Shown here: positions 6,426 to 60,363 of the stretch, one piece after another
Numbering within the stretch: position 1 is the first letter of the stretch
Layout of the letters: every line of letters starts with the position of its first letter
NCBI RefSeq assembly: GCF_003149145.1
Contig: NZ_QGDQ01000010.1
Coordinates: 62,001 to 126,000 of the forward strand
From: Quadrisphaera granulorum
GTDB lineage: Bacteria > Actinomycetota > Actinomycetes > Actinomycetales > Quadrisphaeraceae
Reading direction: 5' to 3'
Length of the DNA stretch: 64,000 nt
Position numbers and translations under genes: made by a program
Notes under the pieces: generated by a model
What the model was told of the DNA's origin: nothing
Database searches by the model: none
What the model saw: the letters and a program-made list of their open reading frames with translations, nothing else

Positions 6426-6490
6426 GCGCACTTTCCGCGGCAAGTGCGCCATACGTCGCCGCGGTGGCGCACTTGCCGCGGAAAGTGCGG
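6426..6490. repeat. Inverted pair of the CACTTGCCGCGGAAAGTG palindromic repeat
   Basis: Two near-palindromic units, 6426-6450 and 6466-6490, lie in opposite orientation 15 bases apart, so the whole 65-base block can fold as one long hairpin. The same unit recurs at 25408-25432 and 25449-25474. It sits between divergent genes (6392 and 6577), so it is not simply a terminator at this place. Confidence 0.8.
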
Positions 6491-19210: not shown

Positions 19211-19256
19211 CCCCTCCCCGTGATCACGACCCCTCCAGCGGTGATCATGGACTTCC
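19211..19256. repeat. Short repeats with the core GTGATCATGG/GTGATCACG
   Basis: A CCCCTCCCCGTGATCACG block (19211-19228) and GTGATCATGGACTTCC (19241-19256) occupy the gap between map and the glycosylase gene. Close variants occur at 20203-20232 and 23814-23829. They resemble, but are not identical to, the GACGATCAAGGAAG repeat arms elsewhere in the window. Confidence 0.5.
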
Positions 19257-19299: not shown

Positions 19300-20217
19300 G
19301 TGGACCTTCCCTTCACGCCGCCGCTTCACGCCGATCAGCTCTTCGGCCACCTCGCGGCAACGGCCGTGCCCGGCGTCGAGGAGTGGCTGCCGGCCGGCCC
19401 GGCAACGGGGGGCGGCGCGCTGCGGCGCAGCCTGCGCCTGCCGGGCGGGCCCGGCGTCGTCGTCGTCCACGTCCCAGCTCCGGAGGCGACGTCGGTGCGC
19501 GCCGAGATCACCACCACCGACCCCGCCGACGAGCCGCTGGCCGCCGTGCTGTGCCGGAGGCTGCTCGACCTGGACCTCGACCCGGCCCTCCCCGACGCGG
19601 CGCTGGCGCACGACCCCGTGCTCGCGCCGCTGGTCGGCGCCGTCCCCGGGCGCCGCAGCCCCGGAGCCCCCAGCGCGGAGGAGATCGCGCTGCGCGCCGT
19701 GCTCGGGCAGCAGGTGTCGACGGCGGCGGCGCGCACGCACGCTGCGCGGCTCGTGGCGGCCCTCGGTGAACGCGCCGGGTCCAGCGGACTGCGCCTGTTC
19801 CCCAGCGCGGAATCCGTGGCCGCTCTCGACGACGACGACGCGACGCGCCTGCTCGCCCTGCCCGTCCGGCGCCGCGAGACGCTGCGGAACCTCGCGCGGG
19901 TGCTGGCAGGAGGCACGCTCGACCTGCGCCACGTCGACGACGGCGGCGACCCGGCGCGGGCTCGTGCCCAGCTGCTGGCGCTGCCGGGCATCGGTCCGTG
20001 GACGGCGCAGACGGTGACGATGCGCGCCCTCGGTGACACCGACGCGTTCCTCGCGAGCGACCTCGGCGTGCTCGCGGCGGCGCGGGTACTCGGACTGCCC
20101 GGTGACGCGCGGCCGCTGGACCGTGCGGCGGCGGCGTGGGCGCCGTGGCGCTCCTACGCGGTGCAGCACCTGTGGGGCGTGCTGCCGCACGCCATCAACA
20201 CGCTCCCCTCTCCATGA
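19300..20217 (+). CDS. AlkA-type DNA-3-methyladenine glycosylase II
   Basis: This 305-residue base-excision repair enzyme has an HhH-GPD fold: LRAVLGQQVSTAAARTHAARL starts the domain, LLALPGIGPWTAQTVTMRA is the helix-hairpin-helix, and the catalytic Asp follows in DAFLASDLGV. The N-terminal 100 residues resemble the AlkA N-terminal domain; an Ada regulatory domain is absent. The start is GTG. It is convergent with the 2H phosphoesterase, and both stop codons lie in one TGATCA hexamer. Confidence 0.9.
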   Translation: MDLPFTPPLHADQLFGHLAATAVPGVEEWLPAGPATGGGALRRSLRLPGGPGVVVVHVPAPEATSVRAEITTTDPADEPLAAVLCRRLLDLDLDPALPDAALAHDPVLAPLVGAVPGRRSPGAPSAEEIALRAVLGQQVSTAAARTHAARLVAALGERAGSSGLRLFPSAESVAALDDDDATRLLALPVRRRETLRNLARVLAGGTLDLRHVDDGGDPARARAQLLALPGIGPWTAQTVTMRALGDTDAFLASDLGVLAAARVLGLPGDARPLDRAAAAWAPWRSYAVQHLWGVLPHAINTLPSP

Positions 20218-22917: not shown

Positions 22918-23798
22918 GTGCCCCGACTCAGACGACGCCGACTGCCTGGCAGGAGGCCGTGACCGTCGTCGTCGCGAGCATGGACCGCCGGGAAGAGCTG
23001 CTGGCATCCCTGCCGCGCCACCTCGAGCAGGGCGTGCGCGTGCTGCTGGTGGACAACGGCAGCCGCGACGGCACGGTGGCGGCCGTGCGGGAGGCGCTGC
23101 CGGAGGTCGAGGTGGTGCCGCTGCCGGCCAACCGCGGGGCGGCGGCGCGCACCCTCGGGGTGGAGCGCGCGTCCACGCGGTATGTGGCCTTCGCCGACGA
23201 CGACTCCTGGTGGGCACCCGGCTCGCTGCAGCGCGCCGTGGAGCTGCTCGACGCGCACCCGCGGGCGGCGCTGCTCACCGCGCGGATCCTCGTGGGTGAG
23301 GCAGAACGACCCGACCCCTTCAACGACGTCCTGGCCGCCGCGCCGCTGGGCGTCGAGCCGGACCTGCCCGGGCCGTCGACGTTGGGCTTCATCGCGTGCG
23401 CCGCGGTGGTGCGGCGGTCGGCGTTCCTCGCGGTGGGTGGGTTCGACGACGTCGTCGTGTTCCCCGGTGAGGAAGAGCGGGTCGCGTTGGACCTCGCGCG
23501 GGACGGGTGGGGCAGCGCCTACGTGCCGGAGTTGACGGTGCACCACCACCCGAAGGTCTCGGCCTCGCGCGACACCTACGAGCGCCGCCGCACCCGCATC
23601 ACGCGCTCGGCGCTGCTCACGGCCCTCATGCGGCGGCCGTGGCCGGTGGTGGCTGCGCGCGTCTCGCGGGCGTGGCGGGCGGGCGGGCCGGAGCGGGCGG
23701 CACTGCTGCCGGCGCTACGCGACGCCCCGCGCGCCCTGCGGGCGCGTCGTGTGGTGCCGCCGCCGCTGGAGGCCCTGGCCCGCTCCCTGGGCCAGTAA
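22914..23798 (+). CDS. GT2 family glycosyltransferase (second of a tandem pair)
   Basis: This 294-residue paralogue of the preceding protein has VTVVVASMDRREELL, LLVDNGSRDGTVAAV, AFADDDSWWAPGSLQRA, GFDDVVVFPGEEERVALDLA and LTVHHHPKVSASRDTYERR. The start ATG overlaps the previous stop as ATGA. The conserved Arg-rich RRRTRITRSALL segment near the C terminus may contact the membrane or acceptor. Donor and acceptor are unknown. Confidence 0.9.
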   Translation: MSAPTQTTPTAWQEAVTVVVASMDRREELLASLPRHLEQGVRVLLVDNGSRDGTVAAVREALPEVEVVPLPANRGAAARTLGVERASTRYVAFADDDSWWAPGSLQRAVELLDAHPRAALLTARILVGEAERPDPFNDVLAAAPLGVEPDLPGPSTLGFIACAAVVRRSAFLAVGGFDDVVVFPGEEERVALDLARDGWGSAYVPELTVHHHPKVSASRDTYERRRTRITRSALLTALMRRPWPVVAARVSRAWRAGGPERAALLPALRDAPRALRARRVVPPPLEALARSLGQ

Positions 23799-23813
23799 TC
23801 CCACCTCCCCTCC

Positions 23814-23829
23814 GTGATCATGGACCTCC
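23814..23829 (+). repeat. GTGATCATGGACCTCC short repeat
   Basis: This is a near copy of 19241-19256, preceded by the same CCTCCCCTCC run, located between the second GT2 gene and the 46-residue gene. Confidence 0.45.
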
Positions 23830-23857
23830 AAAGCACTTTCCGACCGAGGATGGACCG

Positions 23858-23998
23858 ATGAGCACGAGCGACGAGGTGCGGCTGGTCAGCGAGGGCGTCG
23901 TCGACGGCGTGGAGCTGTTCACCTGGTACGACGGCGAAGGCCGCGTCATCGCCGAGCACGCCCCGCTCGACCCGACGCTGAAGAACTGCGGCTGCTGA
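23858..23998 (+). CDS. 46-residue protein ending in Asn-Cys-Gly-Cys
   Basis: The small frame has an ATG with GAGGA about 8 bases upstream and keeps the G+C codon pattern of a real gene. The sequence is acidic, has no signal peptide or membrane helix, and ends with PTLKNCGC, the only cysteines in the chain. It directly follows the GT2 pair. I do not recognise the family. The Cys-Gly-Cys tail could bind metal, be a modification site, or belong to a modified-peptide precursor, but no maturation enzyme is next to it. Confidence 0.6.
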   Translation: MSTSDEVRLVSEGVVDGVELFTWYDGEGRVIAEHAPLDPTLKNCGC

Positions 23999-24009
23999 CC
24001 CCCCCCTCC

Positions 24010-24036
24010 GCGACGATCAAGGAAGGTCTGCACGCC
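24010..24036 (+). repeat. Left arm of the GACGATCAAGGAAG palindromic element (split copy A)
   Basis: This 27-base arm starts GCGACGATCAAGG and ends TGCACGCC, preceded by a CCCCTCC run. Its reverse-complement partner is at 24616-24642, about 580 bases away. In copies C and D the partner is only 3-23 bases away. Confidence 0.8.
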
Positions 24037-24570
24037 GCCGTCGCCTGGCTCTCGGTGTGGGGAGCGGCCCAGCTCACGCCCGCTCACCAGGCACTCATCG
24101 AGGCGATGCCGGACAGTGTGACCCTTGAGGTCGACGGCTTTGGCGAGGTCTTCTTCTCCCACGCCACGCCCCGCAGCGACGAGGAAGTGGTCCTCGTCGA
24201 CAGCCGGGCGGAGCGTTGGGCAGAGGTCTACGGCGGTCTGCCCGACACCGTCCAGACCGTCGTCTGCGGTCACACGCACATGCCTTTCGTTCGGCTCGTC
24301 AACGGTCGGCTGGTGGTAAACCCCGGCAGCGTGGGCCTGCCCTACGGCCGCCCCGGCGCTCACTGGGCCACGCTCGACCGTGGCGCCGTAGCACTGCACC
24401 GGACCCTCATCGACGCGACGGAGCTCGTCGAGCGCACGGCCGCGTCGAGCACCTTCCCCGGCGCGCGGGCTTGGCTCGACGATGCAGTCCGGGCACCCGC
24501 GAGCGATGTCGAAGCCCTCGCTGCGTTCGGCCGACGTGACGGACGTCCTCCGTCTGCGTCGGGGACGTGA
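24037..24570 (+). pseudogene. C-terminal remnant of a YfcE/MPP-type metallophosphoesterase
   Basis: The frame is open from the edge of the left repeat arm. It encodes about 175 residues with the C-terminal metal-binding VVCGHTHMPF and NPGSVGLPYG motifs and the VFFSHATPRSDEE strand of phosphoesterases. The N-terminal half, which should carry DxHxN, GD and GNHD motifs and most metal ligands, is absent. The loss point coincides with the repeat arm. The codon pattern is slightly less G+C-rich than in neighbours. A GTG at 24055 could give a 171-residue product, but it would lack half the active site. Probably a decayed, possibly translocated gene. Confidence 0.75.
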
Positions 24571-24615
24571 TGGCCGTCGTCGTCCTCCAGCCCGCGCAGC
24601 GGACTTCGTCCACCG

Positions 24616-24642
24616 GGCGTGCAGAACTTCCTTGATCGTCGC
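24616..24642 (-). repeat. Right arm of the GACGATCAAGGAAG palindromic element (split copy A)
   Basis: This is the reverse complement of the left arm at 24010-24036 with few changes, followed by GCGGAGGGG, which mirrors the CCCCTCC that precedes the left arm. The two arms enclose the phosphoesterase remnant. Confidence 0.8.
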
Positions 24643-24653
24643 GGAGGGGCGGG

Positions 24654-25343
24654 TCAGAAGGCGGTCGAGGGGACCTCGCGCTCGTCGTCGACGAGGGCCT
24701 GCACGAGACGCGCGGCGACGTCGTCCGGGTGCTTCCCGTGCGGGAGCTTCGGCGCGGTGCCGGTCAGCGGCCTGTCGGCGAGGCCCGTCTCGGTGTGCGG
24801 CGGGCGGGCGTCGACCACGCGTACGCCGGAGCGCCGCAGCTCCTTGGCGGCCGCGCCGACGTAGCTGGAAAGCGCCGCCTTCGCCGCGCCGTACGCGGCC
24901 ATGCCTGCCACCGGCCCCTCAGCGAGCACCGCGGTCACCACCAGCGCGGTTCCCTTGGTCTCGCGCAGCGCCGGTAGGGCCGCGCGCAGCAGGCGCACCG
25001 GGGCCAGGTAGTCGATGAGGAGGAGCTCGTCGAGGGCGTCGTCGTCCTCGGTTCCCACGGAGGCGAAGCCCGACGCGCCCGCCAGGTGGACGACGACATC
25101 GAGCGCGCCGAGGTGTTCCACCGCCGCGTCCACCACGGCCTGCGGCTGGTCGGGGAGGGTGAGATCGGCGGGGACGACGAGCGGCGGTTCATTCCCCAGA
25201 GAACCGGCCAGCTCCGCCAGGCGAGCCTCGTCACGGGCTGTGAGCGCCAGGCGCGCGCCCGCCGCCGCGAGGCGGGCGACGGTCGGCCGTCCGAGCCCTC
25301 CCGTCGCACCCGTCACCAGCACCCGAGCGTTCTGCAGGTCCAC
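24654..25343 (-). CDS. Short-chain dehydrogenase/reductase family protein
   Basis: This is a 229-residue classical SDR with the cofactor motif VTGATGGLGRPTVARL near the N terminus, the HLAGASGF strand (an NNAG variant) and the catalytic YGAAK. The usual catalytic Ser before Tyr is not evident: the strand reads ALVVTAVLAEGPVAGMAAY. Activity may therefore be altered. The GTG at 25343 begins the fold, whereas a longer start would read through the two repeats at 25408-25474. The substrate is unknown. The gene is alone, between the phosphoesterase remnant and glnE. Confidence 0.85.
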   Translation of the reverse strand: MDLQNARVLVTGATGGLGRPTVARLAAAGARLALTARDEARLAELAGSLGNEPPLVVPADLTLPDQPQAVVDAAVEHLGALDVVVHLAGASGFASVGTEDDDALDELLLIDYLAPVRLLRAALPALRETKGTALVVTAVLAEGPVAGMAAYGAAKAALSSYVGAAAKELRRSGVRVVDARPPHTETGLADRPLTGTAPKLPHGKHPDDVAARLVQALVDDEREVPSTAF

Positions 25344-32386: not shown

Positions 32387-32456
32387 GAGCTGTGCAGCGT
32401 TGGCCCCTTGGGAGTGACGGATCCGTCACTCCCAAGGGGCCAACGCTGCACAGCTC
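32387..32456. terminator. Perfect 70-base palindrome, GCGTTGGCCCCTT family
   Basis: Every base pairs about a centre between 32421 and 32422 (GGATCC core). The RNA would form a 35-base stem with almost no loop. It lies between the MFS gene and nadE, both on the plus strand. A related but imperfect copy is at 37763-37836. It may be a terminator or a mobile palindrome. Confidence 0.8.
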
Positions 32457-35165: not shown

Positions 35166-35175
35166 GTCCCCTCCC

Positions 35176-35202
35176 GCGACGATCAAGGAAGCTGTGCACG
35201 CC
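35176..35202 (+). repeat. Single arm of the GACGATCAAGGAAG palindromic element (copy B)
   Basis: This 27-base arm is preceded by CCCCTCCC, between panB and the VOC gene. The facing arm is missing; instead a G/C run (CCCCCCGGGGGCGG) follows. It may be a half-lost element. Confidence 0.7.
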
Positions 35203-37762: not shown

Positions 37763-37836
37763 GGGAGCTGTGCAGCGTTGGCCCCTTCAGCGTGAGCAGT
37801 CGCTCACGCTGAAGGGGCCAACAGAACGCAGCTCCC
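37763..37836. terminator. Imperfect long hairpin, GCGTTGGCCCCTT family
   Basis: Two 35-base arms around a 4-base centre share the outer GGGAGCTG and inner TTGGCCCCTTCAGCGTGAGC sequences, with a few mismatches in the right arm. The outer two thirds match the 70-base palindrome at 32387-32456 while the centre differs. It follows ppgK and faces the convergent gene at 37904, so it may terminate both. Confidence 0.75.
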
Positions 37837-52670: not shown

Positions 52671-52686
52671 CCCCACCCCCTCCCCC

Positions 52687-52762
52687 GTGACGATCAAGGA
52701 AGTTCTGCACGCCGGACCAGGGAGCGTGACGTGTCAGCGTGCACGACTTCCTTGATCGTCGC
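52687..52762. repeat. Paired GACGATCAAGGAAG palindromic element (copy C)
   Basis: Arms at 52687-52713 and 52737-52762 face each other across 23 bases and are flanked by CCCC-rich and GGGG-rich runs. The element sits between convergent genes (MFS and aldolase) and may terminate both. Confidence 0.8.
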
Positions 52763-52821
52763 GAAGGGGTAGGAGCGACGTCGCGAAGGTGGGGCCGCGC
52801 TCGTGCGTACCGGTCGGGAGG

Positions 52822-60272: not shown

Positions 60273-60283
60273 CCCCCTCCCCC

Positions 60284-60339
60284 GCGACGATCAAGGAAGT
60301 TGTGCACGCCGTCGTGTGCAGAACTTCCTTGATCGTCGC
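60284..60339. repeat. Paired GACGATCAAGGAAG palindromic element (copy D) inside the lysine cluster
   Basis: Arms at 60284-60310 and 60314-60339 are almost in contact, so the RNA would fold as a long hairpin between hglS and amaB. It lies 24 bases before the amaB start and could affect relative expression of the two genes. Confidence 0.82.
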
Positions 60340-60363
60340 CGGGAGTTCTCGAGAGGACCTGAC

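Follow-up and report, generated by a model that had tools for sequence, protein, structure and literature searches.

MITEs and other cargo-carrying non-autonomous elements have inverted ends, a short interior, cargo variants and copies distributed genome-wide. Among palindromic repeats with a known partner, RAYT genes are described as always flanked by two inverted REPs, with which they co-evolve, REP abundance tracking the gene (PMC2817692), and REPINs are presented as inverted doublets (PMC3116915). CGTC-tagged REPs, as described in PMC3733652, have stems of 8-9 bp with an unpaired CGTC tag and apparently lack a dedicated transposase. A Vsr-type nuclease domain, MTES_1575, has been defined (PMC3710099), and among the papers that searches of the open-licence PMC literature listed, none links DUF559/MTES_1575 nucleases to palindromic repeats in its title or abstract opening.

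Here we analyse a window of 64,000 nucleotides from the actinobacterium Quadrisphaera granulorum that contains an armed element of 647 bp (24003-24649). We see about an even chance that it belongs to a REPIN-like family, was inserted recently and bears cargo, the likely partner of the family being a Vsr-like nuclease instead of a RAYT. Its repeats, hereafter A units, resemble those of a REPtron in being short and inverted and in occurring as singlets and doublets. As in a REPtron, a nuclease gene lies between two inverted units, although in 36 of 51 cases and not always, as is described for RAYTs (PMC2817692); the arms co-diverge with the nuclease (0 of 2000 permutations), and unit abundance follows the cognate enzyme in two arm families, with an imperfect fit in two genomes (G002 and G011). 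Unlike in a REPtron, the partner, a Vsr-like nuclease whose N-terminal part is AbiEi-like, is not an HUH/Y1 transposase, the unit is 34 nt long, and the doublet is able to hold a probably foreign gene fragment. Since three RAYT features thus recur, less strictly, with an unrelated enzyme, the system appears REPtron-like in its working but is not a REPtron by its enzyme.

The palindromes share a CGTC motif with the CGTC-tagged REPs, for which an unpaired tag is described (PMC3733652), whereas here CGTC is paired inside the doublet stem made by two units. The Vsr-fold homing endonuclease of PDB entry 3r3p ('mobile intron protein') offers another likeness, namely a domain related by profile and a gene placed between the halves of a repeated site; unlike in that case, no intron was seen, and many unoccupied hairpins exist beside the nuclease gene in one genome. 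With MITEs, the A elements have in common inverted ends, a short interior, a cargo variant and dispersed copies, but they differ in that no target duplication was seen, the spacers being too divergent, and that the Y1 search met no end-sharing transposase. A RAYT as the mover was considered and rejected, the PF01797 (Y1) profile having 0 matches in the own genome while the control set was positive in 5 of 14.

A gene fragment between near-identical arms

The initial annotation had noticed matching arms and flanks at 24010-24642, facing each other across about 580 bases. Flanks included, they form an inverted repeat of 42 nt (23995-24036 and 24616-24657, host stop codons included) around a loop that measures 579 bp (Table 1). 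The arms have an exact 14-mer core (24012-24025 on the plus and 24627-24640 on the minus strand), for which the window contains 7 matches with at most two mismatches, whereas 100 shuffles gave 0.15 on average. They are alike at 33 of 34 positions, compared with a mean of 26.2 (range 22-30) in 26 ordinary short hairpin pairs and, as a fairer comparison, with 24-30 in the nine short pairs that have two exact cores; arbitrary arm pairs have a mean of 25.5/34, and 33 is attained by 0.27% of them (these counts cover 48 loci and the window). Such identity means that either the element is young or its arms were homogenised recently.

The reading of the enclosed DNA as the C-terminal half of a metallophosphoesterase agrees with a match to Pfam Metallophos_2 (E = 4.7e-11) that begins at residue 14 and covers positions 52-150 of the 154 in the profile. 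We confirmed 284 relatives in named genomes and kept 80 loci, with a best identity of 67%. In an alignment that took in 7 of these 80 loci, homology sets in at, or within a few codons of, the arm's inner end, and the N-terminal ~96 residues are missing, including the DxH and GNxD of the relatives (~251 aa where the start is clear), which we take to be the N-terminal metal-binding motifs of calcineurin-like metallophosphoesterases. The open frame had also been said to begin right at the left arm; this is true of the homology, but the stop-free frame opens at 23818, ~185 bp upstream, and its sole listed in-frame start is internal (24055). Judged from these sequence features, the cargo is a gene fragment and not a working member of its family. 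Its third-position G+C is 0.82, versus 0.90-0.96 in four neighbouring genes, a difference compatible with foreign DNA without being proof of it, and the piece is probably foreign in origin. A full-length phosphoesterase, sought elsewhere in the genome as the annotation had proposed, was not found there, where this fragment alone turned up; one of the five sister species (G003) has a relative of 39% identity at another locus.

Table 1. Features of the window discussed in the text, in order of position.
Feature	Coordinates	Strand	Evidence or remark
Hairpin, CGCACTTTCCGCGG family	6427..6489	.	matches arms of nuclease gene G000:C39:7388 (L243)
Solitary unit of another arm family (GTGATCATGG..., the type framing other nuclease genes)	23814..23838	+	right limit approximate
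46-aa conserved ORF, left neighbour of armed element	23858..23998	+	
Left arm (A unit), CCCCTCC + GCGACGATCAAGGAAG...GCACGCC	24003..24036	+	arm search
Cargo between arms, 579 bp	24037..24615	+	missing at matching site in 5/5 sister species searched
C-terminal ~155 codons of calcineurin-like metallophosphoesterase; SHATPR, CGHTHMP and natural stop kept	24049..24570	+	alignment, Pfam
Cargo after stop, 45 bp	24571..24615	+	no nucleotide match to relatives extends beyond 24555
Right arm (A unit), 33/34 identical to left arm	24616..24649	-	arm comparison
SDR-family gene, convergent right neighbour of armed element	24654..25343	-	
Solitary A unit	35169..35202	+	
Ordinary A doublet, gap 22 nt, arms 27/34	52680..52769	.	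no orthologous locus recognised in sisters
Ordinary A doublet, gap 2 nt, arms 27/34	60277..60346	.	G001-G004 matches leave only 14-19 bases (sequence viewed for G001 and G002 only)

The corresponding site in sister species

An empty site was found in 5 of 5 sister species, all of which have both convergent neighbours without the phosphoesterase or A arms between them (no arm scoring at least 12 in the five loci). An intact phosphoesterase at this place, which the initial annotation had named as the sign of simple decay, was not seen in any of these five. The neighbours are separated by 13, 18, 39 and 68 bp in four sisters and by 406 bp in G003, versus 655 bp here. No target duplication was seen at the armed element; one is not demonstrable because the sister spacers are too divergent.

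Both G003 and G002 have additional sequence in the vicinity. In the G003 spacer (L116:1141-1441), the 46-aa ORF is partly duplicated, and two hairpins belonging to other families are present. G002 has a ~300-bp stretch (L114:979-1305) between a glycosyltransferase gene and the 46-aa ORF that is unmatched at window 23796-23857, and its place is occupied in the window by the solitary GTGATCATGG unit.

The A arm family

The A unit is the 34-nt arm itself, and the usual element consists of two facing units in a hairpin of ~70 bp. The own genome (G000) contains 55 exact A arms (reversed control 0), or 90 when up to three mismatches are allowed in a 22-mer (control 0), and among the 13 family genomes A arms number 55 in G000, 12 in G003, 4 in G002 and 0 in the other 10. 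The 90 arms form 31 facing pairs, 29 of them with gaps of at most 28 nt and two enclosing gene-sized DNA, of 585 (the armed element) and 1000 (a Vsr-like nuclease gene) as measured from the 22-mer; 28 of the 90 are without a facing partner at up to three mismatches. When 36 arms were placed at random in 2000 trials, at least one facing gap of <1100 bp arose in 8% and at least two in 0.5%. The short gaps originally ascribed to two other copies in the window amount to 22 nt (52680) and 2 nt (60277) between the 34-nt arms. Two more A pairs, whose right arms are degenerate, enclose other palindromes (143 bp in locus L155 and 212 bp in locus L025). At L025:1492-1771 the nesting is threefold, with a GATGGCCCCATC hairpin innermost, GACGATCAAGCG... 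arms next and A arms outermost.

An A-armed nuclease gene between clpX and valS

A check for other genes framed by A arms, also proposed at the outset, yielded one, the Vsr-like nuclease. The 1000-bp A pair holds its intact gene of 312 aa (L023:494-1429, minus strand) between clpX and valS (neighbours named from translations), and the arms of this gene are degenerate (24/34). The C-terminal part of the protein matches PF18741 and DUF559 (Vsr-like), at scores under the curated Pfam cut-offs, and the N-terminal part matches PADLOC AbiEi models (best E = 6.7e-12); in the comparison with the AbiE type IV toxin-antitoxin system, this AbiEi-like N-terminal part alone was matched. We saw the A-armed nuclease in G000 and G003 only, the G003 relative (77% identity) having A arms and lying at the same clpX-valS place. 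This orthologous position in two species indicates that the nuclease itself has made no recent jump.

The clpX-valS comparison covered G001-G004, G005 being at a contig end. In G001 and G002, a different gene occupies the site with hairpins of another family on both sides, and that of G001 matches DUF559/PF18741; G004 has only a spacer of ~185 bp. The clpX-valS spacer (L023, L197, L198, L199) is filled with different genes and palindrome families in different species, in the manner of an insertion hot spot. Derivation of the phosphoesterase element from the nuclease element is unsupported: compared by eye, the two interiors have no stretch in common beside the arms.

Clade-specific nucleases and their palindromes

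All 13 family genomes contain relatives of the A-armed nuclease, in 59 rows, of which 51 were scored after four rows had been merged as pieces of the same gene and two at contig starts and two with short flanks at contig ends had been left out. Their flanks, taken as 415 bases except for the right flank of L258 (151) and the left flank of L261 (385), make the association of nuclease and arms evident: facing inverted arms scoring at least 16, a threshold chosen after the scores had been seen, frame 36 of the 51 nuclease genes, whereas none of 129 control genes, drawn from the window and eight 20-kb stretches, reached this score (control maximum 15). At a score of at least 14, the figures are 41/51 and 7/129, and 15 of the 51 nucleases score within or under the control range. 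Mismatched left and right flanks reach 16 in 3 of 196 cases within a genome and in 102 of 2354 between genomes, an excess expected if related nucleases have common arms. Direct-repeat matches of at least 16, present in 25 of the 51, are consistent with self-complementary arms on both sides.

Among the 36 positives, median distances are 85 bp between the upstream arm and the start codon and ~25 bp between the stop codon and the downstream arm, and arm similarity tracks nuclease phylogeny (rho 0.27, 0/2000 permutations in a Mantel-type test). Common arms (score at least 12) were found in 25/40 comparisons at 55-90% protein identity, in 9/64 at 40-55%, in 0/100 at 30-40% and in 1/406 at 20-30%. 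Counts over the 13 genomes, made for two arm families, show that copy number, too, goes broadly with the cognate nuclease. Arms of the second family, CGAGTCCGACGTC, counted together with the copies beside nucleases, number 13, 21, 8 and 24 in the g4 genomes G009-G012 and 1-7 in the nine others. Two genomes fit poorly, G002 having 4 exact A arms while an A-armed nuclease was not found there, and G011 having 8 CGAGTCC copies while its nuclease scores only 13 and has other arms.

The aligned nucleases (alignment A1, 27 of 46 intact genes, picked for spread) have 7 invariant columns, among them E204, D236 and E247, which are putative catalytic residues, and all 27 match PF18741 at E ≤ 0.01. Profile matches include 3hrl, 3r3p (E = 2.1e-4), PvuRts1I (E = 0.011) and, weakly, Vsr (E = 0.89). 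Outside the family, facing palindromes frame two of three relatives, both of them records of Tsukamurella tyrosinosolvens (scores 44 and 25), whose palindromes match 7 and 4 records of the collection searched at E ≤ 0.001, all from Tsukamurella; the third, from Nonomuraea, scores 11 and is without arms. Three plasmid records contain nuclease relatives, and in viral contigs 6 pattern matches included 0 confirmed ones.

Origin of the armed element

In the place of a RAYT, the likely partner of the A family would be the Vsr-like nuclease, which combines the AbiEi-like N-terminal part with a PD-(D/E)XK-type domain. The co-divergence of arms and enzyme suggests that the nuclease recognises inverted A units. 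It would cut at or near these units, the unit pair being copied or moved into intergenic spacers, and the DNA between facing units, normally <30 nt or the nuclease gene, might sometimes be foreign and would then travel as dead cargo. A passenger "inserted into, or mobilised with" the palindrome, as initially proposed, is the best-supported class of explanation, given the sisters without the insert, the truncated cargo and the near-identical arms. To account for the phosphoesterase piece between two arms, we prefer mobilisation as a unit over capture into a young hairpin. The near-identity of the arms (33/34) favours recent movement as a unit; against it counts that neither a transposition intermediate nor a second cargo copy was seen.

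Capture would involve no movement of a unit: a young ordinary A hairpin already in the spacer would have broken at its tip, for example through SbcCD or the Vsr-like nuclease, and foreign DNA would have been taken up by end joining. Both arms are complete to the hairpin tip, where the cargo starts, a single cargo copy was found, and the two A pairs that enclose palindromes (212 bp in L025, 143 bp in L155) also agree with such an event. However, since the arms of ordinary hairpins are only 22-30/34 alike, the hairpin that was split must have been unusually young, and we regard this course of events as rather unlikely. Two solitary A units might also have arrived independently of each other, one on each flank of an acquired phosphoesterase fragment. 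Solitary units do exist (the 28 unpaired arms among 90), and one chance enclosure of <1100 bp is expected in 8% of random placements; nevertheless, the rarity of 33/34 identity among arm pairs (0.27%) and the start of the cargo homology at the inner end of the arm make independent landing very improbable.

AbiEi antitoxins bind inverted repeats in their own promoter, and the arms could be operators for the AbiEi-like DNA-binding part of the nuclease, serving autoregulation with no role in mobility, the phosphoesterase piece having been enclosed by chance. The match of PADLOC AbiEi models to the N-terminal half of the nuclease (best E = 6.7e-12) is in line with such a function, to which we nonetheless give little credence, as in the 36 positive genes arms are found downstream of the stop codon besides upstream of the gene, and A arms are scattered over the whole genome. 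The assembly is a draft in 86 contigs, which leaves room for an assembly error, but the junctions lie well within a 147-kb contig; simple decay of a resident phosphoesterase is at odds with its lack here in all five sisters, and either explanation seems extremely improbable.

On a wider scale, we assign slightly less than an even chance to a more tentative proposal: that Actinobacteria have a second, independently evolved REP-mobilising system, in which Vsr-type nucleases, differing between clades and lying each between units of its own, write and move dispersed palindromes, and which can enclose and carry foreign gene pieces such as the phosphoesterase fragment. REP-like palindromes are found in many genomes, and the nuclease family with its clade-specific palindromes is a candidate for a new type of mover of them. 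If true, this would provide a role for DUF559/MTES_1575-type proteins and would make REP-like repeats able to carry foreign gene pieces between genes.

Other palindromes and nuclease genes

Four contig ends of the own genome (C2, C12, C33 and C34; L238, L265, L263 and L264) are assembly breaks within nuclease genes, and these pieces have GTGATCATGG arms on their readable sides. The inner ends of the broken genes look near-identical, which suggests recombination or gene conversion between copies. In the window, facing GTGATCATGG units at 19241 (+) and 20212 (-) bracket an ORF (19300-20217) with a flank score of 13, inside the control range. Two near-perfect hairpins, at 32387-32456 and 37777-37822, both contain GTTGGCCCCTT.
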